This document shows, piece by piece, positions 1,309 to 26,988 of a stretch of 64,000 nt of DNA; positions within the stretch are counted from its first letter, which is position 1; each line of letters starts with the position of its first letter. A program made the translations under genes and the position numbers. Source of the stretch: Karstenula rhodostoma CBS 690.94 (lineage: Eukaryota; Ascomycota; Dothideomycetes; Pleosporales; Didymosphaeriaceae); contig MU001506.1 in the NCBI GenBank assembly GCA_010093485.1, positions 930,001 to 994,000 on the forward strand, in the 5' to 3' direction. Under the pieces are notes generated by a model that saw only the letters and a list, made by a program, of their open reading frames with translations, was not told the DNA's origin and did not search any database.

Positions 1309-1951
1309 CGGATGAGGATACATGATTCATGATGACCAATACTCTCGACCTCAGCCGACTTTTCTTCACTTTCTTTTCCACATTCTTTACTTGCATTGGG
1401 GTTTCCGGGCATGGGATGGATATGAGTAAGGATACATCCGAAATCAATGAAGCGGACACATGAGTCACTACTACTGGACGCCGTGGTATGATACAGTACG
1501 GAAATGGTTATGTTGACTGGCATCGCATCGGCGTTTCTCTGTTCGGCATTATACCACGGTAATAGCATCTCGGTCATTAGCGGGCGTTGACGATACCAAT
1601 TCGATCCTTTTGAATCCGATTGTCACTTTGCATTGACAATATTGTGTTTCAGTGAAATTTGTGCAGGTACCTATCACTAGTGTGAGGTATTCTTAGTGCC
1701 TCGCCAGTACCTAGCAACAACAGATATTGAACAGCTGAGCAAATTGACATGGAACTGTCTTGTAGTAGTCTCTTCCATCGATCACTGCTGGACAAGGGCA
1801 GTACTTCACTAACCGCTTCTTCTCTTTCACACCAGGGTTCGTTCGTGAAGAGTTCTTCGACTTCAAGTTGGCTGTAAGCTACAAAGTCGGGGGAACCTCC
1901 CTCCGGTAGTTCTCTCCTCACCCACAAAACCTACAGTTATCATACAACGCA
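1309..1951. other. intergenic, tandem genes
   Basis: This is the 3' flank of the disordered-protein gene and the promoter side of the RING-like gene. I see no convincing gene, RNA or repeat in it. Confidence 0.5.
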
Positions 1952-3571: not shown

Positions 3572-3874
3572 GATTGGGCGTCGGGGAGTGGTGGCTTTGT
3601 TTGAACGGTTCAAGTGTGGTGGTCTTTCTGGATGATATACCCTGTTGTAGGTTTGCGTTTTGGAGTCAGTGACTACCTATGTATTTTACTTAGTATGCAG
3701 TCAGTTAATGCTGACCGATTTTTTCATAGGACATAGAATTTAGCAGTGCAGGTTCGAGCCGTTTGAACGCTTAGTACTAACGAGGGAAACTATCAACTGA
3801 CTTAATATTTCGCATGTAGCGCAAACTACCTAAACACCGTTTCAGATGCACAATAGCACCATTGCTCACTTAGC
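3572..3874. other. intergenic, convergent 3' ends
   Basis: This is the shared 3' flank of the RING-like gene (+) and the epimerase-like gene (-). I see no further feature. Confidence 0.5.
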
Positions 3875-4816
3875 CTACTTCTTCATCTCTTTCGCAACCT
3901 CCACATACGACCCACTCCTGATGTCCTCCAAAATCCCCTTCTCCGCCTGGATGCTCCACCCAAGCTGCTCCCTCGCCTTCCTATTTGTCGCCCGACACTT
4001 CGCCGTCATGAAAATCGCCCAAAAGTGCCCCATCTTCTCCTTGACCTCCTCGACATCAAGCTGCTCACAGGGAACCCCAAGCGTCTCGCAGATAGCCTCA
4101 GAAATCGCCTTCTGCTCGATGTCCGTCTCGGAAGTCGCATTGTACGACTCCCCGGCCTCTGCCTTCTCGGCGAGGATGAAGTACAGGCGCGCGGCGTCTT
4201 CCACGTGCACGGTGGTGGTGCGGGCGGTGCCGGGCAGGATGAAGAAACCGGCGCCGCGGGGGACGAACGATTTCATGTATAGACGGACGCCGCTGCCGCC
4301 TCTGCCGTACACGTACGGCGCGAGGCGGACGTAGGAGATCCGGATGCCTTGGTCGAGATACGTCTGCTTGTTTGACTCGAAGCCCCGGCTGTAGATGTGG
4401 CCTTGGGGCCATCCAGGCGAGGTCTCGTCTGTTTCTTCGTCGTTGGGGTGAGGCTGTGCATTCATGGCACCGCTGGTGATGATGAGGGGCTTGTTGGTGC
4501 CTTTTACACCGGCGGCGAGGGCGTCGTGGGCGGCGTAGTTTGTGGCCCAGCGCTCGTCTTGCGATATGTTGAAGTCCGAGGCGATGGCGTCCGCTATGTT
4601 GATGACGATGTCGGCTTCTCTTGCCTCACGCGTAAGAACATCGAGGGACTTGATGTCGCCGCGGACAGGGCTGGCTCCAAGGGCGCGGAGTTTGTCGTCA
4701 CTGGATTCGGAACGGGATAGGGCGTTGACTGAGTAGCCTTGTGCAACAGCATATTCGATGATGACCGCACCAATGTATCCTGAACCGCCAGTGATGAAGA
4801 TGGTCTGCTTGGACAT
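3875..4816 (-). CDS. NAD(P)-dependent epimerase/dehydratase-like protein (extended or atypical SDR)
   Basis: This is an intronless gene of 313 residues. Residues 4-16 hold a beta strand followed by Gly-Gly-Ser-Gly-Tyr-Ile-Gly, the GxxGxxG dinucleotide-binding loop of extended or atypical short-chain dehydrogenases. The acidic region near residue 54 (Arg-Gly-Asp-Ile) fits the strand that contacts adenine. A Val-Arg-Leu-Ala-Pro-Tyr-Val-Tyr-Gly-Arg-Gly segment near residue 165 resembles the substrate-side motif of NAD-dependent epimerases. A clean Tyr-x3-Lys pair is hard to place, so catalysis could be atypical (NmrA-like or isomerase-like). It is probably soluble, as I see no signal or membrane helix. 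The substrate is unknown. Length is normal for the family. A TATAAAG lies about 150 nt upstream on the minus strand. Confidence 0.88.
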   Translation of the reverse strand: MSKQTIFITGGSGYIGAVIIEYAVAQGYSVNALSRSESSDDKLRALGASPVRGDIKSLDVLTREAREADIVINIADAIASDFNISQDERWATNYAAHDALAAGVKGTNKPLIITSGAMNAQPHPNDEETDETSPGWPQGHIYSRGFESNKQTYLDQGIRISYVRLAPYVYGRGGSGVRLYMKSFVPRGAGFFILPGTARTTTVHVEDAARLYFILAEKAEAGESYNATSETDIEQKAISEAICETLGVPCEQLDVEEVKEKMGHFWAIFMTAKCRATNRKAREQLGWSIQAEKGILEDIRSGSYVEVAKEMKK

Positions 4817-6302
4817 GGTGTTGGGGAAACGGTGATTGATTGGAAAAATTGAGAAGGACGTGAACTGGAGTGATATGGAGGTATGTGTGAAGGTTCAAGA
4901 TGGCCGTGAAACTAATCGTGGATGAACTTTGTGTGAGTAGATGTTGTAGCGTACCTTGCTCGATGCTTTATAGAGCCCATTTCGTACGACCTACAGGGCA
5001 GCGAGCGGGCGTACCGGAGGTAGTTAACGTATAGAAAGGAGATAGTGAAGCGCTTAGTTGTACTTTAAAGGTGCCTACGACACGACTATACTCCTACTCC
5101 CATCGTTGGGCGATGTCCGCATCCTCATTGAGGAACGAGCTAAACCCTCGTCGTAAAGGCAGGCGTCTGAACGGGGCGCAAGGCTGATGCTGCAAGTACT
5201 ATACCTGAACACGTAACGCGCTAACCCGTTGTCGTACGCAAGGATCTGTGGGCAGAACCGTACCATCGGGTAACACTGTGAAGCGGCGGGGATAGCTTCG
5301 GAGTTAGGCCGGCTTTCCAAGGTTAGGCTCCGAACACGTGAGAGCCCAAACACTTGCATGGTCATGGTGGTATTTGCTTAGCTTAATGCCTTAACTATTG
5401 ATCAATGCGATGGCTCGGATCTGTACGCGCTCGCATGGCCCGACTAATATGGACGAGTAAGCACAAGAGCGTATCGGACTACGTGAAGTTGAGGCTTTCA
5501 TCTCGTGCTGCCTTGAATACCTCATAAGCAAATGTAGAGTAGCAGGACTTGTCTATGGGAAGTGCTGGTATAAAGCTGACCCACTCTATTCATGCGAGGA
5601 CACGTTCGGAATAGATAACAGCCTCACCTCGATTGGAGAACGTATTGCGTGAATAGGAACTACAAGTACATTGGAAAGACAGAATCGAATCTGAACCCGG
5701 TGGCCCTGCTAACTTAACGTGCTGCTGAGGCTTTGGCTGTCTCCCTGCCCAGCTTGCGTCACTGCATCCTGCACTTTGACAATGCCCTGAGTATGTCTTG
5801 AAGTTGCTGGCTGTGTATCTTATTGACCTGCATCATGTAACACCACCGTGACAATGATCTAATAGCGACTGAAATCGTATGCTGGCAATTTAGTAGACAC
5901 TTAGGCCAACACAATTCGAAACACTGTTACAGTTGGCAGCACCAATGGCTGACATAACGCAACTGCGATCTCAAAATATGTTCGCAACAAACGAGTGCAA
6001 TTTTTTTTTTTAATATCTTATTAAAAGAGGAGGAACAATGGCTATAACGAGAGTGGTAGCATCCGAAAGTAGTGTAACATAGGAAAATAAGGGAGCGTCA
6101 AGAACACGGAAGACATAATTTGAAATAACAAGCATCCAGTGCGGGTCGACTTCGACGTGTGTTCCCGCTCTCGTCCCAAGAGAGACCCACCCGGCTCCAC
6201 AAGCTCTTTCGAGACCCATCGTCCCGCAACGCCAGAGAGTAGTCTTATGCCGCCGACTCATCCTGTCCGCGGCTGTCCCACAGGGCTACTGGACAAAAAT
6301 CT
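4817..6302. other. 1.5 kb intergenic region
   Basis: This is the promoter side of the epimerase-like gene and the 3' flank of the C2H2 gene, both on the minus strand. Short open frames occur on both strands but none has family-like residues. A run of T sits at 6001-6012. Nothing else is supported. Confidence 0.5.
4967..4973 (-). promoter_or_regulatory. possible TATA box of the epimerase-like gene
   Basis: The minus strand reads TATAAAG about 150 nt upstream of the start codon, a plausible distance for a fungal TATA element. The call rests on motif and position only. Confidence 0.3.
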
Positions 6303-7406
6303 TCAAGAGGGGCAGCCTTTAATGTCGACCCAAACATCATCAAAGATGCATGACATAGGGAATAGGCTGAGGAGCACACGTCGGTGTTGACGAACTTCTG
6401 CTGAAATTCCGTGTCCGAAGTATTCTCGAATCAAATCCCAGAGATATTTTGACTTGTTGAGTAGTGAAAGATTCTGGGAATGACTGCCCTGGCCATGGCT
6501 AGTGAGGAGGTGACGATGAAACTCAGCCTGCTTCGTGAACTGAACACTCCCTGGAGGACAGACGGGGCACACAATAGCCCCTGTTCGTCCATCGTAGCCT
6601 CGTTCCGACAGCAGAGTCCCGTAGTTCATTCTGCCCTTCGAATCGTGCTTCACTTGCAAATGCAACAGTATGGCATCCATCATCGCAGGTTCATAGCCCC
6701 GAATATGAATTCGGAATGAGCATTTCGGCATGGGACATTTGCGCAACTGGTTGAGATCAAACACGTAGTTGTGTAGCGTCATCAAGTCTCTTGTTAAAAT
6801 CCTGGAGCACCCTATCACTGAGCATTTGAACAAAGTCTCAGAATCGTGGCCACTCAACATATGATCCCTGAGCTTGTCGTTACGAGGAAACGCACGGCTC
6901 CCTGTACGATTGCAATCAATTGCCGTACAGGGATACTGTGGAGGTTGAGTGCTATGTTTCTGCTTCTGATGGCGTCGCAATTCGGCGTCACGTTTGAACG
7001 GCTTAGCGCGGCAACCCTCGACATGACAAACGAACGGAAGTTTTTTTATTAATGGGACCTCTTTCTTTTGATCTGGAGGCTGGTGTAAGAGTGGGTGATT
7101 GGGTACGGTTTGGATCGAGTCGGTAAGGGGCAAATGAGGCTCAAGGAATGTATTATCCATGGCATCTACTATCCGCACACTTGCCCTTTTGTTAGCGTGT
7201 TTCTTTTTTTTAACTTACTCATTTCCAGGCAGCAACGCAGCGCCCTGGTCATGCGGCGCGTATGCATCCCAATCAAAGTAGTCCATCGAGTCCATCCAGG
7301 GCTCTTGCATAATCTCCTGCAGCTCGGCGTTCCAGTCGACGGCGCTGAGGTCCTCATTGGCGTCGAAAGGGGCGAACTGCGTATGGTTGCTGACGTAGTC
7401 GGACAT
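6303..7406 (-). CDS. C2H2 zinc-finger protein with acidic N-terminal exon
   Basis: The model is 354 residues, exons 7406-7219 and 7179-6303. Exon 2 carries a clear finger near residues 95-120 (Cys-x4-Cys, then His-x4-His). A second follows with Cys-x4-Cys and Asp-His-Met-x3-His, then two more Cys/His-rich units, the last starting Cys-Pro-Val-Cys and ending His-Arg-His-x4-His. It is probably a nuclear DNA-binding protein. Exon 1 encodes about 62 residues rich in Asp, Glu, Trp, Tyr and Phe, including a Met-Asp-Tyr-Phe-Asp-Trp-Asp stretch typical of acidic activation domains. The exon 1 donor is GTAAGT and there is a CTAAC branch-like site. The only in-frame acceptor near it gives a 39-nt intron, which is very short. 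Alternatively exon 2 starts on its own ATG, 19 nt into the exon. The exon join is the uncertain part. Confidence 0.65.
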
Positions 7407-7954
7407 GGTTGGTTGACGAGCTGAAAGCTTGGCGAAAAGGGCGACGAGGCTAAGACGTTGCAATAGGATTGGTGGACGGTATATTGAGTGTAGGAAGGCT
7501 GAGACGTCGGCGGTATCGGGAACGGAAGGAGCTGACGAGGAGTGAGGCGCGATAGGTTGAGAAGCGTGTACGTTGGTAGGAAATCTGTTGCTGGAGGGTG
7601 AGGGGGATGGCTTGCCTTTATGCTCCTGCTCGCGACATTTCAGCCTAGCGAAAGGGCACACGCACTGTTAACACTGTGAGCTCATCTCGGAAGTCTTCCT
7701 CTTGTAGGCGGGCTTCCATGACTGCTTTCTCGTGCCTCACTTTGGCGCGCGGCTCCAGGCGACCACATCAGGAGATCAAAACTTACCTTGTCACGCTCAT
7801 CCTGTGCTCCTACGTCACTCCTTTTTGCTCGACACACCCCCTAGGTACACTCAGCAGAACCGAAGTCACTAAAAATGCCATTGACATACACAAGCCTTTA
7901 CAATACAGGGGAATCATACAAGCGAGAGATGGAATATCAAACCCCTCTCTTTTC
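7407..7954. other. intergenic, C2H2 promoter side and GH47 3' flank
   Basis: Just upstream of the C2H2 start the sequence is pyrimidine/purine-biased and probably 5' UTR. I see no gene or RNA in the remainder. Confidence 0.45.
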
Positions 7955-10150
<2,196 letters not shown>

Positions 10151-10936
10151 TCAAAACGGCTGAACGGCGCGGCTGGCCGTTGTCGTGTCGCGTCGGCGCC
10201 AAGAACGGTAGTAAGAACCGCGATTATCAAATATAATCACGTCTGCCCCTCACTCTAGAAAGCAATCGAGAGAGATGCGGATTGACAACTGTCTTCAGTC
10301 TGGGGACGCGGCGTAGGGAGTATTCCCATTGGATACCTGGCCTCTGAGCGGCAGGGATCTAGCTTTACGCGAGCGAGCGGTGGGTGCCACGCAGATGCCA
10401 TACCGACTTCACACCTCCATATTGGATATTTGGAACTTAAAGATAGAGCAGCAGCCAAGAGGAAAATGCTCCAAAGATTTCCAGATCTGGGCGGTCTGTA
10501 CGCTGTTCCCCGCGATACACGTTGAACGCATCATGGTGTGCCTACCTGCTGCGTGCAACTCCTACCGCATATAGAAAGTAGAACACCCAAAACACGACAA
10601 AGCTTGAATTCGAGAAGGCAGGACCACATTCCAACATCACTGACCATGGCTGCCCCATCTTGCAGACGCAACGTTGGTCACGTTGTCCGAGATCAACAAC
10701 GCGTTATTCCAGCCAATCACCATCGCCAAAGCATGACCACTGCGTGTCGTCATGGCCTTTTGCACGCGGGATGAGCTGCATTTCTTACTTTATGCCATAT
10801 TCTCTTGCTGTCCATTGTACAACTGTTGCAATCGCCAGGAAACTCAGAACCCACTATTCTTGGAATCAACGGCCACCAACGCTGAACACCAGGAGACACG
10901 CCCTAGCCCCAACGCTCAAGCGCAACATCCACAGCA
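10151..10936. other. divergent intergenic region, GH47 and MBL-fold genes
   Basis: This 786-nt spacer separates the start codons of the minus-strand mannosidase and the plus-strand hydrolase, so it should hold both promoters. I see no strong TATA element and no additional gene. Confidence 0.5.
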
Positions 10937-12068
10937 ATGAAGCGCCTCACCATCGACCCCTCAACCTCGGGCCTCCCCACCAAAGACCACGTGGAGACGA
11001 AAGCATTTCCCGAGGCAAAGACCACGAAGCTACACCCAGCGAACGCGAAGGAAGAAGACACAAACGCAACTCTCTACTTCATCGGCACTGCGACGACAAT
11101 CCTAGAATGGGAAGGCCTACGTATTCTGACCGACCCCAACTTTCTCCACGCAGGCGACCACGTGCACCTCGGCCCTGGCGTGTCCGGCACCCGACAAACC
11201 AATCCTGCCATCGACCTGGAAGAACTCCCGCGAATCGATGCTGTGCTGTTGAGTCATTATCACGAGGACCATTTTGATAGACTGGTGGAGGACAAGCTGA
11301 AGAGGGAGTTGCCGATTATTACAACCCCGCATGCGAAGAAATGTTTGGAGGGGAAGGGTGAAGAGAGCTTTACGCACGTGCATGCGTTGGACTTCTTTGA
11401 GTCCATACAGGTTGACGTCAAGGACGGAGAGGCTACGAAACAAAGGAAGCCGAGCATCAAGATAACAGGGATGCCGGGAAAGCATGTACCGCCAGGGCCG
11501 CTGGCGGTCGCGAACGATATACTCAAAGCGGTGCCTCCTATCAACGGGTGGATGATCGAACTGGGCTACGCAGATGGTCCTGAGCAGGTGTGTGATCCCC
11601 GAATGACGTCCACATGCAAGCACTAACTTAATGACCTCCCAGTTCGAGAACGGATACCGCATCTACATCTCAGGCGACACTCTGATGATCGACGAGCTGA
11701 AAGAGATCCCGGAGCGGTACAAGGGTCAGAACATCGACCTCATGCTGATTCATCTGGGTGGAACGACGATACCGGGACCGAACATGCCGCTCCTGATGGT
11801 GACGATGGATGCGAAGCAAGGCGTGCAGTTGATGCAGCTCATCAATCCGGATCTTACCATTCCTATCCACTACGATGATTACGACGTCTTCTTGTCACCG
11901 TTGTCGGATTTTAAGAAGGCGGTGTTGGAGGCGGGGCTTAGCGACAAGGTTGTATATTTGGATCGGAAGGACCAATTCAAGTTCAACGTGCGACAAGGCG
12001 ATGACTCCGGTTCCGGTTCCGGTTCCAGCGGGTTGTTGGCAGAGAAGTTGGCAACTCATGCCGTGTAG
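10937..12068 (+). CDS. metallo-beta-lactamase-fold hydrolase (UlaG/NAPE-PLD-like)
   Basis: Two exons (10937-11587 and 11643-12068; 55-nt intron, GTGTGT donor) encode 358 residues. A beta-rich N-terminus leads to Leu-Thr-Asp-Pro-Asn-Phe and then His-Tyr-His-Glu-Asp-His at residues 107-112, the HxHxDH metal-binding motif of the metallo-beta-lactamase fold. Later metal-site candidates are a His in Gly-Lys-His-Val, the Asp in Ser-Gly-Asp-Thr (exon 2) and the His in Ile-Pro-Ile-His-Tyr-Asp-Asp. The sandwich layout with a 'Leu-Thr-Asp-Pro' strand is typical of the UlaG / N-acyl-phosphatidylethanolamine phospholipase D branch, so a lactone, phosphodiester or similar substrate is possible but unproven. 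No signal peptide is visible, so it is probably cytosolic. A short Gly-Ser repeat lies near the C-terminus. Without the splice the frame stops inside the intron. Confidence 0.9.
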
Positions 12069-12336
12069 TAAACTGGAGATTCACGCTGTTAAATTTAGCT
12101 TTATCGAGTTTACATGACAACGTTGTCCGAGAAGCATGCATATGCGAGCCACAGTGGAGTTTTGACGTTTTTCATTTCTTGGTCCCACTCATTGAAGGGT
12201 TCCAGTATGCCATTGAAGTATGTCAACCGAAGAGACGCCGTCCGCCAGTCCCATCATGCTTCGTGTGATCTTCACCCGCTGTGGTCCTTCGCCTCTCTCT
12301 GTTTCCTAAACCCCTCACCCCGCTACCGTGCTCCGT

Positions 12337-12773
12337 TTATGCCGATCGCTTGCCCTTGGGGTTCTTCTTGCCAACGTCGGAGATGGTGAGACCTGTAGTC
12401 GCACATTAGTTTTAGGGGGTCGTGATGAGTAAAGCGGGGAAATCGTACCCGGGGGAAGAGACTGCTTGAGCTTCTCGGCCTTGTCGGTGTCCTTGAGGAC
12501 CAGGGTGTAGATGAAGCGCTCGCATCGGACCTTGAACTTGATGTTGCCGGCCTTCTTGTTCTTCTTTATGCGCGCAGCTGCAAGGCGTGTCAGCAATTGT
12601 CCTCTGCATCTTTCCCGCAAGCAATCGTCCCATGTGTCTCAGTGCTCCCTCTAGTGGTGCATTCGCTAGCGACGGGCGCAATTGCGTGCGGGCGAGTTGG
12701 TCAACGTACACCTGGCATCCTTGCGCCTGCAGATCTCGATGAACTGCTTGATGTCGGAAACTTCGGACGGCAT
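12337..12773 (-). CDS. RPL38: 60S ribosomal protein eL38
   Basis: Three exons (12773-12710, 12577-12449, 12392-12337) give 82 residues, normal for fungal eL38. Exon 1 encodes the Ser-Asp-Ile-Lys-Gln-Phe-Ile-Glu segment through Arg-Arg-Lys-Asp-Ala. Exon 2 encodes [13 protein letters not shown] and [11 protein letters not shown]. Exon 3 encodes a Lys-rich tail. All of these are eL38 hallmarks. The GTACGT donor of intron 1 is required, because the nearer GT, 3 nt upstream, breaks the frame. The protein is a small cytosolic component of the large subunit. The gene is head-to-head with the 88-residue membrane protein. Introns in a short ribosomal-protein gene are usual in fungi. Confidence 0.96.
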
Positions 12774-13110
12774 TTTGACGGGTTGTGGTGGATCGGTGTC
12801 GGTGATCTGGTCGTTCAGCTGGAAATCGTTGTGGAAATCGTTGTGGAGATTCGCTTGCGGGGCACGGGCCAGGAAGGGGCGGCGATGGGCGTTACTGTAT
12901 GCGGGAAAGTGCGGTTTGCGGGTGACGACGTGTGGCGCAAACAACGTGAACCTGATCCAGACAGCTTGCCTCTTCACTACTGCTGCCTGCCGCTATATAT
13001 TCCGGTGTCACGCTGTTGAATAGAAGTGCACTCGCTATATTTGCACCCACAATACCTAGCACCCGCGGTCTGCGAAATCAGTATCTCAGCCCTCACGCCA
13101 CATCGCAAAC
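12774..13110. promoter_or_regulatory. divergent promoter region, eL38 and 88-residue membrane protein
   Basis: The 337-nt spacer lies between two start codons on opposite strands. A short TA-rich element sits at 12993-13000 (cluster of TATATA) and another TATATT at about 13036. Either could serve one of the genes. A shared regulatory region is inferred from geometry only. Confidence 0.4.
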
Positions 13111-13965
13111 ATGCCTACACCCATTGACCGTGCAGTCAGCCAACGTGTAAGTCCATCATCTACCTTGCCTTTTGAGAAGCATATATACACTATATCTCTT
13201 TCAATATTCAAAACAGCCCTTCTTCTCTCTTTGCACAGATCCAGGGTATAGTTGGGCAACGAGTTCGTCTTCTGCTTCGTTGCCAACTTATCAGTCACTG
13301 ATTCTGGGGCAACTTGAGAATCACCTATTACCCATGGTCCTGTCACTCGCGCATAACGATCGTCACCCTCTCAAGTCGCCGCTTTATCAGTCAACAATAA
13401 AGTGGCAACTTTAGTCTCAATATCAAGAACCCTCCTACTAACAACCAGTATAGGGTCCCTTCCTCGCTTTTGCCGCGATAATCACCGGCGTCGCCGCCTG
13501 GAGTATCTGGGGCGAAGACCTTTTCCCCAGCCAGGATCCCAAAGGAGGTATGCTCCTCCTCTTCCTCCTCATATTTATCTGCGGTGCACCTGCACTGTGG
13601 TTGTTCATGCCGACGGGTATCACTGCGCCCCGGAGGTCGTAGAACCAGTAGTCAACATTCCGAGCATATAGTCGGGCTTGATTGAAGACTGTGAAATCTT
13701 TGTGTATCAAGCGGATTTCCAAGAGAAGTTTGAATGTGGTGCTGACTGAGGGGCGCAGACCCGGCGACTTGGACGCATGAGGAGTGTGTAATCTGGCTCA
13801 AGAAGGTATGTGTATTTTGTCCCTTGTTGTCCTTCCTCTACTCGTTCGTTGAAGCCTTGCTGACTTGTCTCGCAGCGCAATCTTCACCCCTCACCCCTTG
13901 CCACGACGGCGGAACTTCTCGAGCGCATCAAGGCCAACATGCGCATGGCTACGAGCGGACCGTAA
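13111..13965 (+). CDS. small single-pass membrane protein, 88 residues, uncharacterised
   Basis: Four exons (13111-13146, 13454-13547, 13759-13805, 13876-13965) join in frame to 88 residues. Donors are GTAAGT, GTATGC and GTATGT, and intron 1 has a CTAAC branch-like site just before its acceptor. Residues about 13-32 are a hydrophobic helix ending Trp-Ser-Ile-Trp-Gly. Then follows an acidic Asp-Pro-Lys-Gly-Asp-Pro loop and a C-terminal helix-rich region with Trp-Thr-His-Glu-Glu, Trp-Leu-Lys-Lys-Arg-Asn-Leu and Glu-Leu-Leu-Glu-Arg-Ile-Lys-Ala-Asn. This tail resembles the small HeH/SAP-like helical repeat of nuclear-envelope or chromatin-associated proteins. I do not know a function. The precise exon structure of such a short gene, with consistent phase at every junction, argues that it is real. 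Confidence 0.72.
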
Positions 13966-14524
13966 GGCTTGAAACGGATTTGTGGACCTACCAGGAGCAT
14001 GGAGTGTGTGTGTCTAGTTATTGATCTGTGTTGGAAGCGAGCATGAGACAGTGGGTGTGGATTTCCTTTGCTACAGATTGATACCCTACAGTACCCGGAT
14101 ATGCACATTTCTCGTCGATTTGATCTTCATCAATGATATCCCACCAGCATTTTGAGCACCTAAGAACACTTTTTGTGTTGTTTTGTGATATTCGCCCCCC
14201 AGATCGCAACCGGAACGCACTTTCCAAGCGAATCGAGGCCGTAACAAGATACTCGTAGGAGAGATGAAATCTATACACCCGGGTCATGGACAATCCGGCC
14301 GCTAAAGTTGTTTGTCGCAACTCGCCCAGATTCACCTCAAGGCCCGTTACCATGCCGCCGACGCCCAAGAACCCCAGAAAACTTTGACCGCCCCAATCAC
14401 TGTAGTTGATATGAGGGAGTGCAGCTCCCACAACGAAAGCCACCGGCAACCCATCCACAACCGATCGTCCTTCCTCACCCCCCCCCCCTAAGTCATCCCA
14501 AGCTCCCCCTTCCCCTTGCGCACT
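13966..14524. other. intergenic, convergent 3' ends
   Basis: The stretch holds 3' flanks of the 88-residue protein gene (+) and the 555-residue protein gene (-). A minus-strand open frame covers 14018-14458, but it has no recognisable features. There is also a run of ten C at 14479-14488. Confidence 0.45.
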
Positions 14525-16291
14525 CTACTCCCCACTCTCCACCCTCTTCATCTCCGCCAACATGGCCGCATCATCCCTAAGCGCCTGACTCTCCTCCCTC
14601 CACATCTTGGTCTCCTCTTCGAGCTCCCTGGCCAGCCTCTCCTGCTCCTCGCGCATCTTCGCCGTGTAGGGCTCGAGCTCCGAGTCGAGATCGAGCCGCT
14701 TCTTCGCGACCGTCTCGCGGCGCGCTTTCATGGCCTTGAGTTGGCGGCGCGTCTCGGCGATACTGAGGGGCTTGGTGCGCTTGGGGTCGGGTATAAGAAG
14801 AAGAGGGGCCGGGGGTGCGGGACGCTTGAGGGTTGGGGCTGCTGGTGCGACTGGAAGTGTGGGTGTGAATGGGGAGGCTGGGAGCATTGGTGCGGTGGGT
14901 GCGGGGGTGGGAGCCATCGAGGGTGTTGGAGTGGTGAGGGTTCGCTCGGTGGGCTCGGTGGGCTCGGTGGGCTCGGTGGGCTTGGTAGGCTCGATGGGCT
15001 TGGTAGGCTCGTCCTTCTGCTTATCGTTCTTGCCACCTTTGTTCTCGTTGGTCTTCTTGCCGGTGTTCTCCGCCTTCTCGGTAGGTGTCTGGACGTCCGT
15101 ATTCTCCTCTTTCTTCTCGGTAGGCTCCTTGACACCCGTGGGTTTCTCTGTCTGCTGCATGGGCTCCTCGACACCCATGGGCTGCTCAGTCTTCTCGGTG
15201 TGCTCTTCGGCAACGATGGTCTCTGAGGATGCGTAGTCAGAAGGGGCGGACCTCTGTGCGAGCGGGCTTGGAGGCGAGGTGGGACGGCGAGGGAAGAACG
15301 GACTGCTCTGCGTGAGAGGGGTATCAGGGCGGCTAGGTGTGGGGGAGTCTGCACGCGTGGAACCACCGTCATTCGGCTTCGCTGGTTTGGCTCCGATGGA
15401 GAGGGGTGGGAGAGGGTCGAGTTCAAGGGTGTAGGGCTCGGCGCCTTTGCCTTTCGTCTTGGGGTTGTGCGAGAGCTTCATGCCATGAGCGTCAATGGCC
15501 TCTGCAGACGTGTTAGTGAAGTCTCATCAGAAAATATTGGGCTACGTACCCTTCGAACGGTAGTGGAAGCGGAAGATAGCCCAGGGGTCTTTGCTCGGGC
15601 GCTTTGCGTTCAACTTCTTCTTCCAGGCGTTCGCGGCCTTCTTGTCGAGTTCTTGGCAGTTCTTTTCAAAGTCAATCATGTACTCCGGGGCGATAGTCTG
15701 GTAAGTCGCCTTCTTCTGATTAATGCCGTCCTTCTCCTCGTCGTCTTGACCGTCAAGGTAAGTGATCATAGCGTCCCGCGGGTACTCAGCCCCAAGGGTC
15801 CGGAGCACGTAGAGGCGAACCTCAATGGTTCCGACCGTCTCCAAGTTATCCTCATTTTTGGTGAAGCTGAAGCCGGAAACAGTAACCACCTTCATCTGGG
15901 TGTCGATGGTTTTCGCTTCACTGAGGCCGTGGTCGCTCTGGTATAGCGCCTCCTCGAAATCGAGCTTGACGCGACTCTGCAGCTTGACGGTCTTGCTAAT
16001 CATATTGTTGGCTTTGCGGAGGACTCCGTCGACGTGCAGGTCCCAGTGGACAGACAGCGTCTATTACACTCAGCAAAGTTACTTGGAAAGCTCCACAAGA
16101 GCCGTACTTACCGTTCCATGGAATTTACCCGCGACCTTGATTATGTTTCCATCTTCGACCGGCACGTAACAGCAGATGGCTGCATCATCAGGGTCGATGT
16201 ATGCACCGTACTCCGCAAGCTCCTCGACCTGTTCTTGGACGTGCACATGCAGCTCCGCACGGCGATCGGTGCCTTTCTCTTGGACTTTCAT
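14525..16291 (-). CDS. uncharacterised fungal protein, 555 residues, beta-rich N-domain and coiled-coil tail
   Basis: Exons 16291-16112, 16060-15550 and 15501-14525 are joined through GTAAGT and GTACGT donors. The first about 235 residues look globular: acidic start, an Asp-Asp-Ala-Ala-Ile-Cys-Cys-Tyr-Val strand, Val-Asp-Gly-Val-Leu-Arg, then Val-Gly-Thr-Ile-Glu-Val-Arg-Leu-Tyr-Val-Leu-Arg. This pattern reminds me of the DUF7918-type fungal proteins of unknown function, a low-confidence comparison. Residues about 250-460 are low-complexity (Pro, Thr, Lys, Glu), with a run of Thr-Glu-Pro / Thr-Lys-Pro triplets encoded by near-identical 9-nt units. The last 75 residues are a charged heptad-rich coiled coil (Arg/Glu/Lys/Leu). 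No signal or membrane segment is present. No function can be assigned. Confidence 0.75.
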
Positions 16292-17074
16292 GGCGGACAG
16301 CGGAAAAGAGAAATACTGATTACGGAGTCAGTTCCAGTGGGTCTCCGATATCATCTATAGAGGGGTTGGATTGAACTGACGTACAAGCAGCAGATTTGGG
16401 TGTGCGCTGACGTGTCTGCGCGCGGGCTGCAGATGAAGGGTTTCTGTATGGAAAAGAGCTGTTGTCTGTAGGTGTTGCTAGGTGTGCAGCATGTATTGGA
16501 GCGATGATTGATGTCAAACTGTTGTAAGTGGGAAGTAGGGACAGTGGTAAAGAAGAGCGAATAGGTGCGGGGTTCGAGCTATATGTAGCAGGTTTGTTCC
16601 TGGCAAGTGAGAGGATACCGACCGACTCTCCGTAGGTGAGTCCAAAAGTGAGTCTCAGGGTGGGATCTAAACGGGTTCCAGTAGAGTCCGAGCGTAGCGA
16701 TCTGCTTTACCGCAAGTGAAGAACGAAACCCAGATATGAGCGAAAGAGAGTGTACTTCACCGCAGACTAGAAAGTGTGTAGCCTCACGTGCCAGGATCCT
16801 GTGTGTATGAAAGATTCGGATATGGGAAATAAAGACGAGTCACTCCAGGCTAGATCACAAGCAGTCCTCAGAACCTGTTTGTTCTTTCTTTTTTTTAGTG
16901 CAAAGTTCGTGTCCATGTTTAGAGCTCCGCATACTCAGGATTGCCCTTTCCCACCCAAAAGATGACGTTGTTGTACGTAGTGGAAGTCCGAAAGTATTGA
17001 ATACCAAGTCGTGATGCCGCGTCAGTGCAGCGCTCAAGATAAAAAGGAAGGGCCTTGTAGGCAGAAACACGCCC
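16292..17074. other. intergenic, 783 nt
   Basis: This is the promoter side of the 555-residue protein gene and the 3' flank of the dehydrogenase-like gene. No gene, RNA or repeat is supported. Confidence 0.45.
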
Positions 17075-18142
17075 CTAAGAACCGCCTGAGTTCCTCCTTC
17101 CCTCATTCTTTTCCGTCTTCTTGATCTCCACGTCTGCCCTCTGCTCCCAACTCTTCAAGCTTTCAGCATGATCCGCTCCCTTTTCCACCACCTTTAGCGA
17201 CTCTTCAAGGTACCTCTCAGCCAGCGCTGGCAACTCTGTCTGAAAACCTGACTTCTCGATCACGTCTCTTGCGATCTTAACGTCCTTGACCAGGAGCTCC
17301 AGTTGGTAGCCGGTGTCGTACGACTTCAAATTCTTTTGCGAGTACTTCGTGGAAAAGTTGACGCCAGTACCAACGTTCATCACGTCGATCATGGTCTGCG
17401 GATCGAGACCGAGCTTTTGGCCGGTGACCTGAGTGCTAGTGAGTTGAAGGACATGATTTGTTACGCTAAAAAGAGCGCGGTATCTTTGACCTCGCAGTAC
17501 TTACTAAAGCGTCGTTCAGCGCGATGATGCTTCCAACACTGACGTAGTTGTTGAGCGTCTTCATGGTATGGCCCGCACCTAAACCGCCCATGGGAAACAC
17601 ATGCGTACTCATGTCCTTCAATATGGGCATCACTTTCTCGAGCGCTTCAGCAGAGTCGGCACCGACCATGAGCGTGGCACCTCCCTGATCAATGGCATGC
17701 AGCTGCTCCTGGGTGATGGGTGAGTCCACAAGGTCGACCCGTAGACGGGTCAGCTCAAGGCCTAAAGCTCTCGTATCGAATGGTGAAGAGGAGCCGGTGT
17801 CGACAATAACCGATCCTGCTTCGTATAAGATGCACGCCGAGATTGATCGAGCTTCGAGGCGTACATGCCTGGCTTCAAATGTGGAGCGATGCCGTTCGCA
17901 CCCAGCAGCACATCGTTGACGACTTTTCCGTTGGGCAGCATCGTGATGACAATATTGCAGTTCTGGAAACTGTCCGGGTCTGAGGTGGCTATCCTTGACT
18001 TTGCATACTCCTCGACGAACTCGATGCCTCGCGCTGGGTCCGCATCCCGAACAAGCAGCCTGTGGCCCTTCTTCGCGAGACAAGCGGCCATAGGGTAGCC
18101 GGCGTTACCCAAGCCTACCCATCCAATGCTGGGTTCCTCCAT
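17075..18142 (-). CDS. 3-hydroxyisobutyrate dehydrogenase-like protein (beta-hydroxyacid dehydrogenase family)
   Basis: Exons 18142-17869, 17815-17505 and 17428-17075 give 312 residues, normal for the family. Residues 7-15 are Gly-Trp-Val-Gly-Leu-Gly-Asn-Ala-Gly, the NAD(P)-binding loop. Leu-Gly-Ala-Asn-Gly-Ile and Lys-Pro-Gly-Ser-Val-Ile-Val-Asp-Thr follow, then Gly-Ala-Gly-His-Thr-Met-Lys-Thr-Leu-Asn-Asn, with the catalytic Lys at about 177. The usual Asp-Ala-Pro-Val-Ser-Gly-Gly loop is Asp-Ser-Pro-Ile-Thr-Gln-Glu, so the serine is threonine and the glycines are lost. Intron 1 (17868-17816, 53 nt) must start with GC rather than GT: the donor reads CAG|GCATGT. The join restores the conserved Lys-Pro-Gly-Ser-Val-Ile. 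Without it the frame breaks, so a pseudogene is the alternative reading. Intron 2 is GTAAGT-AG. Substrate unknown. Confidence 0.82.
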
Positions 18143-18792
18143 TTTCGATTGGGTATGGGGTTAGTGGTGCGAGGCGTGAACGAAGGGTGCTAGGTAGAGT
18201 AGATAAAATGCGGAGCCCTTCCGCAATTACCCCACAACTAGCTCAAATGCCGACCCATGAGCAGACGTCTAATGATGTACCGTGTGGCAGTCCGGAGCAT
18301 TATATAGCAAGGCGATCTGAACGACGACGGACCATCGCCCTTTGATGCGCTCGCGATAGAAGAAGCAGGCCAGACGGAATAGGAAGGTGGGCTCCGGGAG
18401 GCTAAGAGATAGGTCAAGACGACGCAGGGCAACGGCGCATCTGTAGGCGCCATGTACAGCTTCACAAGCTTATCTTCGACATTACTTTTGGGAGAACGGT
18501 ACATAGCACGTCGAATTGTTCTGGGGCAGGACGGATGGGGTTGTTATGGGGAGCAAGAGGAAGATTCGGACGATTCGGACACGCGGAGATGGCAGCTGGG
18601 CAGACCCACTTTCACATGTGGTCGTCGCATCGTGAGGACGGCGCAAAGGTTTTTCTGCAGGCGCCGTTTTGAGCCCCACGAACAGGCGTGCGGTAGAATA
18701 GTGACTGTTGTGCGCGCGCCTAAGCGTGTAGAGGGAGAGGAGTCGAAGAACATGTGTGATTCCGAGAATTTCCCTTCGTGTACAATTGCCGC
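18143..18792. other. intergenic, promoter side of the dehydrogenase-like gene
   Basis: About 650 nt of normal base composition between the dehydrogenase start codon and the AT-rich block. Short open frames exist on both strands, but nothing is recognisable. Confidence 0.45.
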
Positions 18793-18801
18793 GGCCAAAT
18801 C
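18793..18801 (+). repeat. putative 9-bp target-site duplication, left copy
   Basis: GGCCAAATC lies 11 nt outside the left inverted repeat, and the same 9-mer recurs at 25478-25486. A chance match at such symmetrical places is unlikely but not excluded. Confidence 0.55.
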
Positions 18802-18812
18802 GTGCAGGCAGG

Positions 18813-18832
18813 TCACCCGACTATAGTTTTTA
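18813..18832 (+). repeat. left terminal inverted repeat of the AT-rich element
   Basis: TCACCCGACTATAGTTTTTA is the exact reverse complement of 25448-25467. Inward of it, about 35 nt (a run of C, then CTTATAGGCG) still resemble the complement of the right end, with differences that are partly C-to-T. Confidence 0.85.
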
Positions 18833-19730
18833 GATCAGCGTATACTGCCCCCTTATAGGCGTACAGGTAAATTTTATAGTATACACTAAGGTAGTATTAA
18901 GGCTTAGTATATTATATAAGCTAGATTACCTATAATAAATAAAATTACCTAAATAATTTCTAAATATATTTAACTATAATACTATATATATATTTATATA
19001 AATAAGTTTTAAATAAGTTTATATAGTAATTACTAATATATCTACTAAAAAGCTCTTTTACTATATAAATAAATATATTTTAAATATATTCTAGCTCTAA
19101 TATATAGTAGCTATTATATTAATAATATCTAGTCTTAAATTATTTACTTAATAGCCTTAGCCCCCTTTTAATAAATATATAGGTATTTATATTTAAATAT
19201 ATTCTAAATATATTCTAAATATATTTAACTAATAATTTAAAGGGAGAGTATATTATTAAATATAGTAAGAATAGGTATAGGGCTTATAGAGTAAGTTTAA
19301 TATATTCTAAACTTATTTAAATCTTTTACTTATATAATACTAAAGGGTATACTAGACCTATAGTACTTATATTACCTATATAATTAAGGTATATAGTTTT
19401 ACTATTATAGATTTAGTTTAAATATATTCTAAATATATTTACTTACTTTAATTACTAACTTTTTAAAAATAAATAAAGGATAACTAGAAAAGTACTTCCT
19501 TCTCTAAATAAAAGGTAAATATATTCCTAATCTATTCTAAATATATTTAGCCTATTAATTTATATCTAGTCTACTATAATACTATAATAGTAGCTTATAA
19601 TACTATTAATACTATAAGTTTAAATATATTTAGAATATATTTAAGCTAATTCTTACTAGACTTTTACTAGGCCTATTACTCTCCTCTCTTTCTCCCCTTT
19701 CTCTTCCTCTCCCCCTCTTACCCTTAACTA

Positions 19731-20345
19731 GGTAAGCCCTTTAAATAGATTCTAAATATATTTATACTAATATACTTAGAATAATAATAAAAATAAAAAG
19801 GAAGAAAAAAAGGAAAAAAATAAAAAAAAGGAAAAGAAAAAAGCTATTCTTTTCCTCTTTATTTAGGTAAATCCTTTAAATAGGTTCTAAATAGGTTAAG
19901 AATATATTTAAGCTAATATCTATAAGATAAGGATAAGAATAAAGAAAATAAAAAAAAAAAAATAAAAATAAAAAAAAAAAAGGAAGAAAAGACTTCTTTT
20001 CCTCTCTTTAGTCTAGTAAATTTTTTAAATAGGTTTAGAATATATTTATACTAATATCTATAGAATAAGAATAAAAAGGAGGAAAATAATAAAAAAAAGA
20101 AGAAAATAAAAAAAAAGGCTACCTCCTTTTCCCCTATTTAGGTAAGTCCTTTAAATAGGTTCTAAATAGGTTAAGAATATATTTAAGCTAATATTTATAA
20201 AATAAAAATAAAGAGGAAGAAAATAATAAGAAAAATAATAAAAAAAAAGAGAAAATAAAGAAAAAGGAAAAGAAAGCCCCTCCTTTTCCCTCTAATAAGG
20301 TAAGTTTTTTAAATATATTCTTAACTTATTTTAAATATATTCTAG
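19731..20345. repeat. degenerate tandem array inside the AT-rich element, about 5 units of 127-158 bp
   Basis: Units start near 19731, 19865, 20014, 20141 and 20299. Each begins with a GGTAAGTCCTTTAAATAGGT-like stretch, continues through AAGAATATATTTA and CTAATAT, and ends with a long A/G-only run followed by CCTTTTCCTC. Length differences come mainly from the purine run. Confidence 0.7.
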
Positions 20346-20469
20346 TAAATACTAATATTTTTAGCCCTTAACTAAGAACTAGAAGAAAAGGAGGAATAAA
20401 AAAGAGAGAAAGAAAACTACTATTACTACTACTACTACTAATACTAGTAATAATAAGACTATTACTAAA

Positions 20470-20720
20470 GTAAATTTAAATAGATTTAGAATATATTTAA
20501 TCTATTACTAATATATTTAGGCCTCTACCCCCTTAACTATTACTAAAATAAGTTTAAATAGATTTAGAATATATTTAACCTATTACTAATATATTTAGGC
20601 CTCTACCTCCTTAACCCTAAAGAGGTAGAGTAGTTCTTAAAATAACTCTAATAGTTAGGTAAGTCTAAATAGATTTAGAATATATTTAAACTATTACTAA
20701 TATATTTAGCTATCCTCCCC
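20470..20720. repeat. second degenerate tandem array, about 3 units
   Basis: Units start near 20470, 20549 and 20659. Each has TTTAAATAGATTTAGAATAT or its CTAAATAG variant, then CTATTACTAATATATTTAG, and two of the three continue into GCCTCTACC. Confidence 0.65.
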
Positions 20721-23700
20721 TAGTAGCCTATTTAAGAGAATAAAATTAAGTTTTTATAGTAATAATAGTAGCTATAAAACTAGTCTTAAATATAAAGTCT
20801 AAATATATTTAGAACTTATTTAAACTAGTTCTAAATATAACTATAAACTATTTTTTAGATAGATAATAAAGTTTTAAATATAACTCTAAACTATTTTTTA
20901 AATAGAAAATAAAAACTAAATAGTATTTTATATAAATATATTAGTAATATATTTAAATATTTTCCTTAAATATATTTATAATATAATATAATTACTATTT
21001 AATTATATTTAGCTAATCTAAAAGGTTTTTCACACTAGTCTATATATAAAAAAAATAAGGGGTAAAAGAGAACTATAAAAAGATTCCTTTTTTTATTTTA
21101 TAGATATTACTTCTTTATTTATATCTTCTTCTTAAAGTACTTTATTATAATATTAAAGCTAGAATAAAATATAATTCTTTCTATAAATATATTCTAATAT
21201 TATTTATAATATATTTAAGTAGGTTTTCTACTAAAAGTATATCTAGCTTAGGTCTCTTTCTTCTAGTATACTAGAGCTTTCTAAAGATATTTCTAGTAAA
21301 GAATACTTTATTTATCTTAAGGAACTATACTACTAAGTATTACTATTAAATAATATAGAAACTCTATTTTATAGAGTAAGTTCTTTTATAGGAATATATT
21401 ATAAATAAGTTTCTAATATATTTAGTAGTATTTTTATAAAAAGGGTATACTTTATACTTATATTAAGTAATACTATCTAAACTACCCTATTACCCCTAAA
21501 AAGACTAGCTAAGCTAGCTTTACCTAAATATTAAAGACTATTATTTAGTATACCTAGCTTATAACTTTAAATTCTAAAGATATCTATAGAGAGGATAGCT
21601 ATATAAATATAATTAAATATATTCTAAATATATTTAAACTAGTATAAACTATACTAGTTAAACCTATTTAAAATACTTTTAATAAATAAAATACTAGTTA
21701 CTTTTTTACTTATCTAGTAACTCTAGAAGAATAGTATTAATAGGTATTCCTTTAATCTACTCTCTTTTACTCTACTAATTATATAAAACGCTAGGTAAAA
21801 GGAAAAGTAAAGAAGTATTACTTCTTTTTAAAAAGTAGCTAATTATTCTAGCTAAATTTAAAAACCTACTAGTAATTTCTTTTAGCCTTAAAGTTTCCTT
21901 CTATATATTTAGTATATAAAGAGAAGAACCTATCTATTTATTCCCTTTAAAGAAAATACTAGAAATAGTAATATTTTAAGATAGCTAAGTAAATATATTT
22001 AGAATATATTTAAGCTACCTAATATATCTATCTATAGTTCTTTTTTATATAAATTTATTTTTTTTTATAGCTTAAATTACTACTTATCTAGCTTAAACTA
22101 TTTTTTCTAAATAGTAATTTAATCTCTCTATAGCTATAGTACCTTTTACTTTACCTATAACTCCTAGTTTTAAATAAGAACTTATTACTATATAGATTAA
22201 TTTCTACTTAAATATATTAGGATTAATTTTAGAATATATTTAAATTAATATATTTAGAATTTAAGGAAGATCTAATAAGAGATATTTTTACTAAAGAGGA
22301 TTCTATAAAAGAAGTTTTTACTAGAGAAAATCTTATAAAAGAAGACTTTATAAAAGTAGTCTTTCTAATCTTAGCTAAAAGTAGGCTACTTAATAGATAC
22401 CTTACTCTTTCTATATTAATAAAGCTAGATAAGTCTAATATATAAAATACCTTATCCCCTTTTATAATATTTTTAAATAAATTATTCTCTCTTTACCCTA
22501 AATATATTATAAATATATTTATAGAGATTTTACTTAGAATTTATTCTTTTTTACCTATTTACTAGCCTCTCTTTATATATTAATAAAGAACCTCTAAGAT
22601 AGGCTTAAAGAATTATAATTTATATATTAAATCCTATATATATCCCTTACTTTATATTCTATAATATCTTAAAGATCTATTTATTTTATACTAGAATATA
22701 TTATAAATATATTTTTAATAGGTTTATATTAACTTACTTTAGAATACCCTTAAAAAGAGGTTATTTTTACTTTATTTAATATCCTTTATTTCTAGCTTAT
22801 TTAACTATATTAGAGTATAATTTTATTTAATTTTAAGTAGCTTTAGGTATTAGACTTATATCTTATAGTAAGCCTACTATAATTATAGAATATTTTTTAT
22901 ACTTAGCCTAGTTCTTAATACTATCCTATATTAAATTCTTTAGAATATATTAGGAATATATTCTAAATATATTTAGCCTTTACTTCTTACTTATAAGAAG
23001 ATTATATAGCTTTATATATTTAGTCTTTATTCTAATATATAGAAGACTCCTTATTTAATTCTATATTATTCCCTAAATATATAGTACTCTTAGAACTATT
23101 TTATTAATACTTTAATAGAAATATATATAATAAAAGTATATTATACTTTAGAGTTATTAATACTAGTCTCTTAAGTAAGAGTCTAAGATATAAAGTATTT
23201 CCTTAAAACCTATAAATATATTTAGATAATATTAGAAATATATTTATTTAGTTTACTTTATATTTATTTTATATCTATATTAACTATAGTACTAAGAAAT
23301 CCCTAATTATATAAATAATTCTAATAAAGGTCCTTTTAGGTAGCCTTACTACTTTTTTAGAAAAAGTAGAGTAAGCTATTCCTATATACTAATAAGGATT
23401 TAGAGTTAGTAATAATTTAGCTAAGAGTAATAACTAGAACTTATTAGAAATATATTTAAATAAAGTAATTAATAAACTATACTTTTACTATACTCCTTAT
23501 AAAAGATAGTAATAAGAATTTTAAACTATTTCTTTTTAAGTTTTTTATAAAATATATCTATTTAGAATATTATCTATAAAAAGAGAATCTTTACCTATTA
23601 ATTATAGAAATAGACTATATAGTTAGCTAAAGCTATTATAGTAATATCTTAAATATAATACTAAATATATTAGAAATATATTTAGATAAATATATTTAGA

Positions 23701-25447
23701 ATATATTTATATAAATATATACTTCTACTAGATTCTATAGATATCTTATATACTACTTATAAAGAATACCTTTAAGACTATATTTAAATAGAAAGGTAGT
23801 AAGCTTTTTATATTTTATAATTTACTAAATTTAGTCTTTATTAGTAAAGATAGTATTTAGTTTCTCTAAATATAAGATATTTTACTACTATAAATAGGCT
23901 AATAGTTATAAAGAATTTAGAAATTAGGCTAAACCTATTACTAATATATTTTAAATATATTTCTATAGATAAGCTTATATCTACTTAGTATTAGTATAAG
24001 TATTAAATAAAAAATATTATAAATCTCTTTTAACTAGTCCTTTAGAAGAAAGTATAGTAGTAGTAAAATATAAAAGTAAGTTCTAAATAAAATAAAAATA
24101 TAATAAAAAGTTTTTACTAAATTAATAAGAATAAGGATAAGAAATTTTACTAAGTAGATCTTCTTTACTATTTTACTCTAACCTTAGAGATAATCTATAC
24201 CTAAATATATTTAGAAATTATTTAGAATATATTTAAGTTTAAATTTACTATACTAATTAATCTAAGCTATTTAGGGTTCTATAATATTATAGTATTTTAT
24301 TAGGAGAGGTAGGCTATTCTAGAATAGATTTTTTAGATAATTAATATCTACCTTTTATAATACTTTCTAAAAAAAGTAGTTTTTTATTTTTACCTTTTAC
24401 TATATCTATACTTTATATTTAATTACTTAGTATATAAAATTAAATAGATCCTACTATTATTAGCTAGAATAAATTTTAAATAAGTTATAAATATATTCTT
24501 ATATAATATAGTAGTTAAAGAACTAGACTATATTTTTATAGATATAATATATAATATAACTAGTTTTACTACTATCTTTACTTTATACTAAGATAATACC
24601 TTAATACCTCTTTCTCTTTACTTCTTCTTTTATTTAAAATACTAGTATAAAGCTATTTTATCTCTTTAAAAAATTAAAAAATAACTTTAGTATATAAATA
24701 GGTTTAGATTATATTCTAAAAGTATTTATAATACTTAATCCCTATATATATATACTTTTACTTCTATATATTTATATTTAGAAATAGAGAGAAGGTTTAT
24801 TTTAAAGAGTATACTTTCTTTTTAAAATATTATATCTAAATATATTAAAATTATATTTAGAATCTATTTAGTTATATATACTACTAATACCTTTTTTAAT
24901 ATCTTTTTACTAGTTAGGTATATACTACTAGCTAGCTATAGTATATAGATAATATATATAATATCCTTATTATAGGTTTTTAGATATATTAGGAGGATAA
25001 AGGAGTAGATTATTTCCTTAATATATAGTACTATACTAAGCTTTTTATTTATACTTCTAAGTATAAATAATATTATTTATATAAATATATTATAAATATA
25101 TTTAGAATATATTTAAGCTAAAAATATATTATAACTAGTAGTTTAATACTTTTTTATAGCTCCTATAGTTAAAGGTTATTATTAGATTTAACTACTATAT
25201 CTAAACTAATATTTTAAAGTAGATTAGGGTTTTTAAATAATAAAATAGGTTATAGTAATAGATTATAGATAAAATCTATATTTAAATATATTCTAAATAG
25301 GTTAGCTCTAGGGAGGTATTAGAAAGATAAAGAGATAAAAAGGATACTAATAATAATTTTATTCTTAAGGTAACCTAACCCTAAAAACTCTATAATTACT
25401 ACTTTAAGTAAGGTAGTTGCGCTAGTAAGGGGTATAGTTAGCTAAGG

Positions 25448-25467
25448 TAAAAACTATAGTCGGGTGA
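25448..25467 (-). repeat. right terminal inverted repeat of the AT-rich element
   Basis: TAAAAACTATAGTCGGGTGA on the plus strand is the exact reverse complement of 18813-18832. It marks the point where base composition returns to normal. Confidence 0.85.
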
Positions 25468-25477
25468 GCTGTATCCT

Positions 25478-25486
25478 GGCCAAATC
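25478..25486 (+). repeat. putative 9-bp target-site duplication, right copy
   Basis: GGCCAAATC lies 10 nt outside the right inverted repeat and matches 18793-18801. Confidence 0.55.
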
Positions 25487-25602: not shown

Positions 25603-26988
25603 ATGCTATCAAGATCCTCCCAGAAGACGGCGCAGGTACGCACGCACCTTCCACGGTCCCATTGAACTGCGAAACGGGCATCACAGCTAACGCGCACGAC
25701 AGACGCTCCTGCGGGGCGCGCGACCAGCCTCACGATGCATCGCTGGCCCGTCCATGGCCACCCGTAGTACGCGCAAACCCTCATGCCTCGCCGAGCAATG
25801 GAGACTGACAGCGCGCAGCCATGGCCACGGTCAACCACGACATCTTCAAGCCCACCAAGTTCGGGGGCAAGTACACCGTTACCCTGATTCCTGGTACGCG
25901 CCTTCCGCAAGAAGCAGCCCCCCGATTCAACATGTATTGAACAGAGCGCAGGTGACGGTATCGGTGCCGAGGTGTCCGAGTCGGTCAAGCAGATCTTCAA
26001 GGCCGACAACGTGCCCATCGAGTGGGAGCAGGTCAACGTGACCGGTGTTGAGACGGGCAACAAGCACTCCGAGGAGCTCTTCCGCGAAGCCATCGCCTCG
26101 CTCAAGCGCAACAAGCTGGGTCTGAAGGGTATCCTCCACACGCCCATCGAGCGTTCCGGCCACCAGTCGTTCAACGTCGCTTTGCGCCAGGAGCTCGACA
26201 TTTACGCCTCCATTGTCCTGATCAAGAACATCCCCGGCTACGAGACGCGCCACAAGAACATCGACCTCTGCATCATCCGCGAGAACACCGAGGGCGAGTA
26301 CTCCGGCCTGGAGCACCAGTCGGTCGATGGCGTCGTCGAGTCGCTCAAGATCATCACCCGCGCCAAGTCGGAGCGCATCGCCAAGTTCGCTTTTGCCTTT
26401 GCCCTTGCCAACAACCGTAAGAAGGTTACCTGCATCCACAAGGCCAACATCATGAAGCTTGCCGATGGTCTCTTCCGCAACACTTGCAAGAAGGTGTCCG
26501 AGGACTACCCCACGGTTGAGTACAACGACATGATCGTCGACAACGCCTCCATGCAGTGTGTGTCGCGTCCCCAGCAGTTCGACGTCATGGTCATGCCCAA
26601 CTTGTACGGAGGTATCCTCTCCAACATTGGAGCTGGTCTTGTCGGTGGTCCTGGTATCGTGCCCGGCTGCAACATGGGCCGCAACGTTGCTGTCTTCGAG
26701 CCCGGCTGCCGTCACGTTGGTCTTGACATCAAGGGCAAGGACCAGGCCAACCCTAGCGCTTTGATCCTTTCCGCTGCTATGCTTCTGCGACACCTTGGTC
26801 TTGACGACCACGCCAACCGCATCTCGCAGTCCGTCTACAGGGTTATTGAGGAGGGGTACGTACTACAACATATCAGGAATCAACAGCCGCTAACACCGAA
26901 CAGCCAAGTCCGGACTCGCGACATGGGAGGCAACTCCACCACGCAGGAATTCACCAGGTCAATCTTGGCAGCGATGGAGAAGGCATGA
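25603..26988 (+). CDS. IDH1: isocitrate dehydrogenase [NAD] subunit 1, mitochondrial
   Basis: Five exons (25603-25635, 25703-25766, 25819-25893, 25952-26855, 26904-26988) give 386 residues. The product is a subunit of the mitochondrial NAD-dependent isocitrate dehydrogenase of the citric acid cycle. Residues 1 to about 33 are Arg/Ser/Ala-rich with no acidic residue, a typical matrix targeting sequence, and occupy exons 1-2 almost exactly. Exon 3 begins Met-Ala-Thr-Val-Asn-His and leads to Thr-Leu-Ile-Pro-Gly-Asp-Gly-Ile-Gly. Exon 4 has Arg-Glu-Asn-Thr-Glu-Gly-Glu-Tyr-Ser-Gly, Lys-Ala-Asn-Ile-Met-Lys, Val-Asp-Asn-Ala-Ser-Met-Gln and Gly-Gly-Pro-Gly, all typical of the IDH1-type subunit. The last intron is 48 nt and has no in-frame stop. 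The exon 2 donor could also be 3 nt upstream. The start codon is 125 nt from the AT-rich element. Confidence 0.96.

Follow-up and report, generated by a model that had tools for sequence, protein, structure and literature searches.

Structure and Borders of the AT-Rich Block

The window (the whole 64,000-nucleotide stretch of Karstenula rhodostoma CBS 690.94 DNA that was analysed) contains an AT-rich block with a GC content of 0.19, compared with approximately 0.48–0.63 across most of the window. The first-pass annotation had described this block as a single element of about 6.7 kb with defined ends, and it is one: it occupies positions 18802–25477 (6,676 bp), full-length copies align over approximately 18802–25478, and the ends could be read. 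The 20-mer TCACCCGACTATAGTTTTTA at 18813–18832 is the exact reverse complement of 25448–25467. The 9-mer GGCCAAATC, the target-site duplication, is found on the left at 18793–18801 and on the right at 25478–25486, placed 11 and 10 nt outside the inverted 20-mers; both repeats had been reported correctly. The left terminal inverted repeat (TIR; 18802–18832, plus strand) has a perfect inner 20 bp and an imperfect outer 11 bp, and the right TIR (25448–25477, minus strand) reads AGGATACAGC followed by TCACCCGACTATAGTTTTTA on the minus strand. The end sequence of the family, in inverted pairs, is GTGCAGGCAGSTCACCCGACCATGGTTTTTA. The clear TIR is approximately 30 bp long in the window copy and 41 bp at 90% in the short element L045. 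At the right end, a single base separates CCT from the duplication (G in 16 of 23 cases, C in six, and T in one); the right terminus is therefore uncertain by one base, and position 25478 could belong to the element.

Three kinds of internal feature were identified. A purine-rich local tandem duplication with a 137/275-bp period lies at 19740–20307, and a 78-bp tandem duplication in two copies lies at 20458–20615. When palindromes were masked, 14 self-matches remained, namely the TIR pair and 13 matches within 19.77–20.71 kb, while ten shuffles gave 0–4. Sites fitting the palindrome GAACNNGTTC as collapsed by repeat-induced point mutation (RIP) number 67 and form 37 clusters between 18962 and 25293; a less mutated form occurs in short relatives. 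A weak, repeated coding-like signal, changing frame along its length and with no homologue found, is located on the minus strand at 23900–25400.

Dinucleotide composition shows that the block is RIP at saturation. Relative to expectation, CA is 0.03, TG 0.02, and TA 1.36 in the block, compared with 1.09 for both CA and TG in positions 1–18700 of the window. An isocitrate-dehydrogenase-like open frame (named by eye; 25888–26988, plus strand) starts approximately 400 bp past the right end, and the insertion may sit in or near its upstream region. The gelsolin-like protein encoded in the window is 89–90% identical to proteins of Didymosphaeria variabile, Paraphaeosphaeria minitans, and P. sporulosa among the best 120 of 7,998 candidates; D. 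variabile and P. minitans belong to the Didymosphaeriaceae (Pleosporales).

Large Copies, Short Relatives, and Their History

The first-pass annotation had asked for the TIR to be sought in inverted pairs elsewhere in the genome. Searching the 44.3-Mb genome (29 contigs) with the element and a TIR pattern identified at least 14 such large elements with 28 paired ends (the window copy and at least 13 others), together with at least ten short elements. The 20-mer with up to three mismatches had 45 matches, compared with one for the reversed control pattern, which is well above chance. Sorted by coordinates, 28 of these are the ends of the 14 large elements, nine belong to short relatives, and eight are apparently unrelated. 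A second TIR pattern (35 matches compared with four for its control) contributed further short elements and also five lone ends for which the matches listed include no partner. Several of the 13 other large elements are split by later insertions, and their main pieces are 88–92% identical to the window copy.

The short relatives share the same ends and measure approximately 370–550 bp, apart from one of 2.5 kb. The latter (L067) was considered as a candidate long relative and rejected, being a short element with a nested insertion; with this exception, the two TIR pattern searches returned no other long element with these ends. Two more short elements from the second pattern (C2:1140202–1140562 and C10:394926–395440) fall outside the ten checked for duplications. 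The cores of five short relatives (L019, L020, L022, L045, and L050) contain, by eye, a degenerate CCCTAA telomere-like tract of approximately 50 bp. Seven near-identical 20-mers TAACRCGTCTATAGTTTTTA were also seen, at C5:1930197, C10:1378771, C12:1597641, C18:65044, C24:517426, C27:208060, and C28:77769; they are possibly the end of another repeat family. Viral and prokaryote contigs had no exact match to the TIR pattern, a result that says little about fungi.

Target-site duplications were scored as the best of six alignments per element. By this measure, all 13 ordinary large copies and nine of the ten short relatives carry their own 9–10-bp duplication with at most one mismatch; the short element L045 has no clear duplication. 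In the six pairs with one mismatch, every difference is a transition, as RIP would give. The large elements thus bear the marks of class II transposons, with inverted ends on 28 ends of 14 copies and a different target duplication for each copy, and the short relatives bear those of MITEs (small size, common TIR, and a duplication in nine of ten).

The remaining large copy, c13 (C7:1656454–1677844; L013, L071, and L047), extends over 21.4 kb, has a right-type end on both sides, and contains a nested element as well as part of a copy in inverted orientation. By eye, the 9-mer GTTGCGGGT flanks it on both sides, and GTGCAG is left over from the left end; the rearrangement probably postdates insertion. 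An LTR-like element containing a repeated 245-bp stretch was seen nested inside several copies and beside a Mutator-like element (MULE) (L013 from 3870, L006 from 7878, L014, L015, L016, L017, and L061).

Median copy-to-copy divergence, taken over row pairs sharing more than 2,500 columns of the copy alignment, is 8.8% for transitions and 0.17% for transversions. Once RIP is discounted the copies would be nearly identical, which suggests a recent, joint spread. Variable sites left among the copies are mostly in CT and AG contexts because CA is nearly exhausted. Attempted recovery of the ancestor by pooling all copies raised GC only to 0.27, and the pooled sequence has 1,439 TA compared with 21 CA and 21 TG, indicating that CpA is saturated. 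The CA+TG share of (CA+TG+TA) is 0.47 in the outer 60 bp on the left and 0.34 on the right, and 0.00 in the middle. Sequence flanking the element was examined in five copies and is of normal composition; the CpA-to-TpA depletion is thus that of a RIP substrate, present in the repeated DNA and absent from these flanks. GC content is 28–40% in eight short relatives (19-base flanks counted in), compared with 14–24% in the large copies. RIP has a length limit, known from Neurospora work, and the GC kept in the short relatives is as expected near that limit.

Coding Content and the Palindrome Array

Six-frame Pfam scans of two of the 14 copies (L004 and L002) detected no transposase domain and nothing credible; the weak matches were to unrelated families (Apo-CIII, E 0.34; Vfa1, 0.52; Guanylate_kin, 0.12). 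As a positive control, two RIP-mutated MULE copies from the same genome (three frames each) matched PF10551 (E 2e-4 and 1e-5), in each case short of the Pfam cut-off; their GC contents are 0.12 and 0.22, compared with 0.20 and 0.24 for the element copies. Simulated RIP on the gelsolin left 360 bits (pooled-copy level) or 330 bits (single-copy level) of 665. A PDB sequence search with one minus-strand frame of L004 gave nothing useful (best E 0.64), and Rfam gave no match.

Codon signal was examined separately. In a first codon test, the true frame came out on top in 31 of 38 control bins, though the median margin was only 2.7; none of the element's frames was conspicuous. We then calibrated a RIP-aware codon model on genes of the host, where 84% of 38 windows (600 nt each) scored above the 95% level obtained from shuffled sequence. 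At this length, three of 31 element windows exceeded the level, compared with 10 of 15 for a MULE copy, with the proviso that the model uses host codon usage and that an odd or intron-rich gene could escape it. At 300 nt, where 71% of 72 host-gene windows exceed the threshold, the pooled element had 13 of 64 windows above it and a MULE 22 of 32. Chance alone would put approximately three of 64 windows above it; some coding is therefore possible, the most plausible place being the minus strand close to the right end. Seven of the 13 windows lie in the left 1.9 kb, which holds the tandem and purine-rich repeats. Overall, the 6.67-kb form looks mostly non-coding.

We regard it as possible, if on balance doubtful, that the 6.67-kb form is autonomous, with a gene for a transposase of approximately 400–500 aa on the minus strand at 23.9–25.4 kb that is too RIP-mutated or divergent to recognise. 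The other six pooled windows above threshold fall in this interval, five of them favouring the minus strand, and the signal also rises there in single copies c01 and c04 and less so in c06. An autonomous large form would also fit the family in that the only other long element with the same ends in the two TIR pattern searches is the nested 2.5-kb one, five single ends being left over. However, single copies have only 15, 13, and 10 of 64 windows above threshold, whereas the fractions are higher in MULE copies (17/32, 17/30, and 10/30) and in the nested LTR-like stretch (39/57). In addition to the Pfam results from two copies, a 490-aa read-through of the interval had no homologue in a search whose sensitivity is limited for sequence mutated to this degree, and the palindrome clusters continue unchanged across it.

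The palindromes are far in excess of expectation, the 67 sites derivable from GAACNNGTTC comparing with a mean of 6.0 and a maximum of 13 in 40 second-order shuffles. Spacings of exactly 11 bp account for 17 of 66 and spacings of 22 bp for seven of 66. The 37 clusters are spaced more evenly than chance would give (coefficient of variation 0.39, the expected value being 0.71; p = 5e-5, corresponding to one among 20,000 random placements), under a placement model that we chose and applied after the pattern was seen. Mean cluster spacing is approximately 121 bp in the left third and 215 bp in the remainder. Tandem duplication was detected only at approximately 19.77–20.71 kb and therefore does not explain the spacing elsewhere. 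The short relative L019 keeps a less mutated form of the palindrome, GAACTTGTTCAGAACTTGTTC. We rejected the idea that such palindromes are a general feature of RIP DNA, having found no excess in three MULE copies, the nested LTR-like stretch, or the L067 nest; three other loci with weak matches to the element have two, one, and one sites. We also discarded a conjectured ancestral form, a double palindrome with CG centres, which was not enriched in the genome (three matches compared with five for the control).

We infer that the palindromes serve to bind a dimeric protein, possibly the transposase. A more speculative and rather improbable extension is that the large element is poor in protein-coding content and chiefly carries the array of dimer-binding palindromes, acting as a scaffold to which a DNA-binding protein (the transposase or a host factor) attaches and not as a gene carrier.

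Origin, Classification, and Comparison With Known Systems

The element is a genuine TIR DNA transposon. A transposon of this kind hidden by RIP was the reading first proposed, and it is borne out by the recurring TIR, whose restriction to this one locus the first-pass annotation would have taken as a refutation, and by the position of nearly all copies inside their own duplicated target. We are highly confident that the locus belongs to a TIR DNA transposon family that spread to at least 14 sites in a recent burst, followed by RIP, the host's own defence, which silenced all 14 large copies by mutating them to saturation. A transposase, itself deduced, would have recognised the common ends and excised the element, and insertion at staggered cuts approximately 9 bp apart would have produced the duplications. 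After the burst, RIP left the outermost 60 bp and the short relatives partly spared. The 6.67-kb form either would have moved in trans or may have carried a small transposase gene near its right end that has since become unrecognisable. The points against this history are L045, which lacks a clear duplication, the rearranged c13, and the five single TIR-like ends without a listed partner.

Assignment to a superfamily is based on duplication length, from which the family is probably Mutator-like, a placement that we hold with modest confidence. Passages of PMC3310237 give MULE target duplications as 9–11 bp, a range that includes the 9–10 bp of this family. The original label of Mutator-like fits the duplication length but is not demonstrated: the two copies scanned yielded no MULE domain, although one was found in two RIP-mutated MULE copies. 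Filing as a MULE is not possible, as no transposase was found.

Superfamilies of the hAT, P, and Merlin types have 8–9-bp duplications, and it is somewhat unlikely that the element belongs to one of these instead of Mutator. Such a placement would agree with the failure to find a MULE domain in the two copies and with the duplications of the window copy and L022, for which a reading of 8 bp followed by a terminal G is also possible. However, the best duplication length is 9 bp for 14 of the 22 matched elements and 10 bp for the other eight, and the two copies likewise yielded no hAT, P, or Merlin domain. RIP genomes commonly contain long AT-rich blocks, but there is virtually no chance that the ends are a fortuitous inverted repeat within an AT-rich isochore instead of the termini of a mobile element; that notion is refuted by the 14 copies, which share their borders and each have a target duplication of their own.

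Recognition of the transposon family turns an anonymous AT-rich block into a defined, recently spread family, in which some of the unmutated sequence survives at the element ends and in the short relatives. Duplications and a RIP-aware codon test can help to separate coding from non-coding elements once homology has been erased, and the palindrome array is a testable oddity.

Among known systems, ascomycete MULEs of the Phantom-Ca and Mutyl groups have duplications of 9 bp and 9–10 bp, respectively (Table 1, PMC6446971). As far as these groups are characterised there, the element resembles them in its TIR ends and duplications and differs in having no detected MULE domain (two copies), an asymmetric outer 11 bp, and palindromes along its length. 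The clear TIR of this family is shorter than those of plant MULEs, given as typically 100–500 bp in passages of PMC3310237, which counts against a Mutator placement, though TIRs of ascomycete MULEs are given as 22–99 bp in the relevant part of PMC6446971. The same genome has a second TIR family, a RIP-saturated MULE of 3.47 kb (L072:2570–6036 and further copies) with many short derivatives; a copy read by eye has the 9-bp duplication CTCTCGATG. This family is like the element in these respects, but it has a different end sequence (by eye), a detectable MULE domain and coding signal, and no palindrome excess. Compared with MITEs and other non-autonomous TIR elements, the short relatives agree in having the ends and duplications of a family, as does the large form in being mostly non-coding, but 6.67 kb far exceeds MITE size. 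In Aspergillus flavus, AT-rich insertions resemble the window element in their RIP-like patterns and include some without discernible TEs, according to the abstract of PMC9910759. Those lacking TEs are described there as subtelomeric with constant polarity, in contrast to the window element, in which ends and target duplications define a transposon. The titles and abstract openings searched contained no description of this transposon family. The family is new and of a known kind, a TIR DNA transposon, and is unusual for its evenly spaced palindromes over the whole length.
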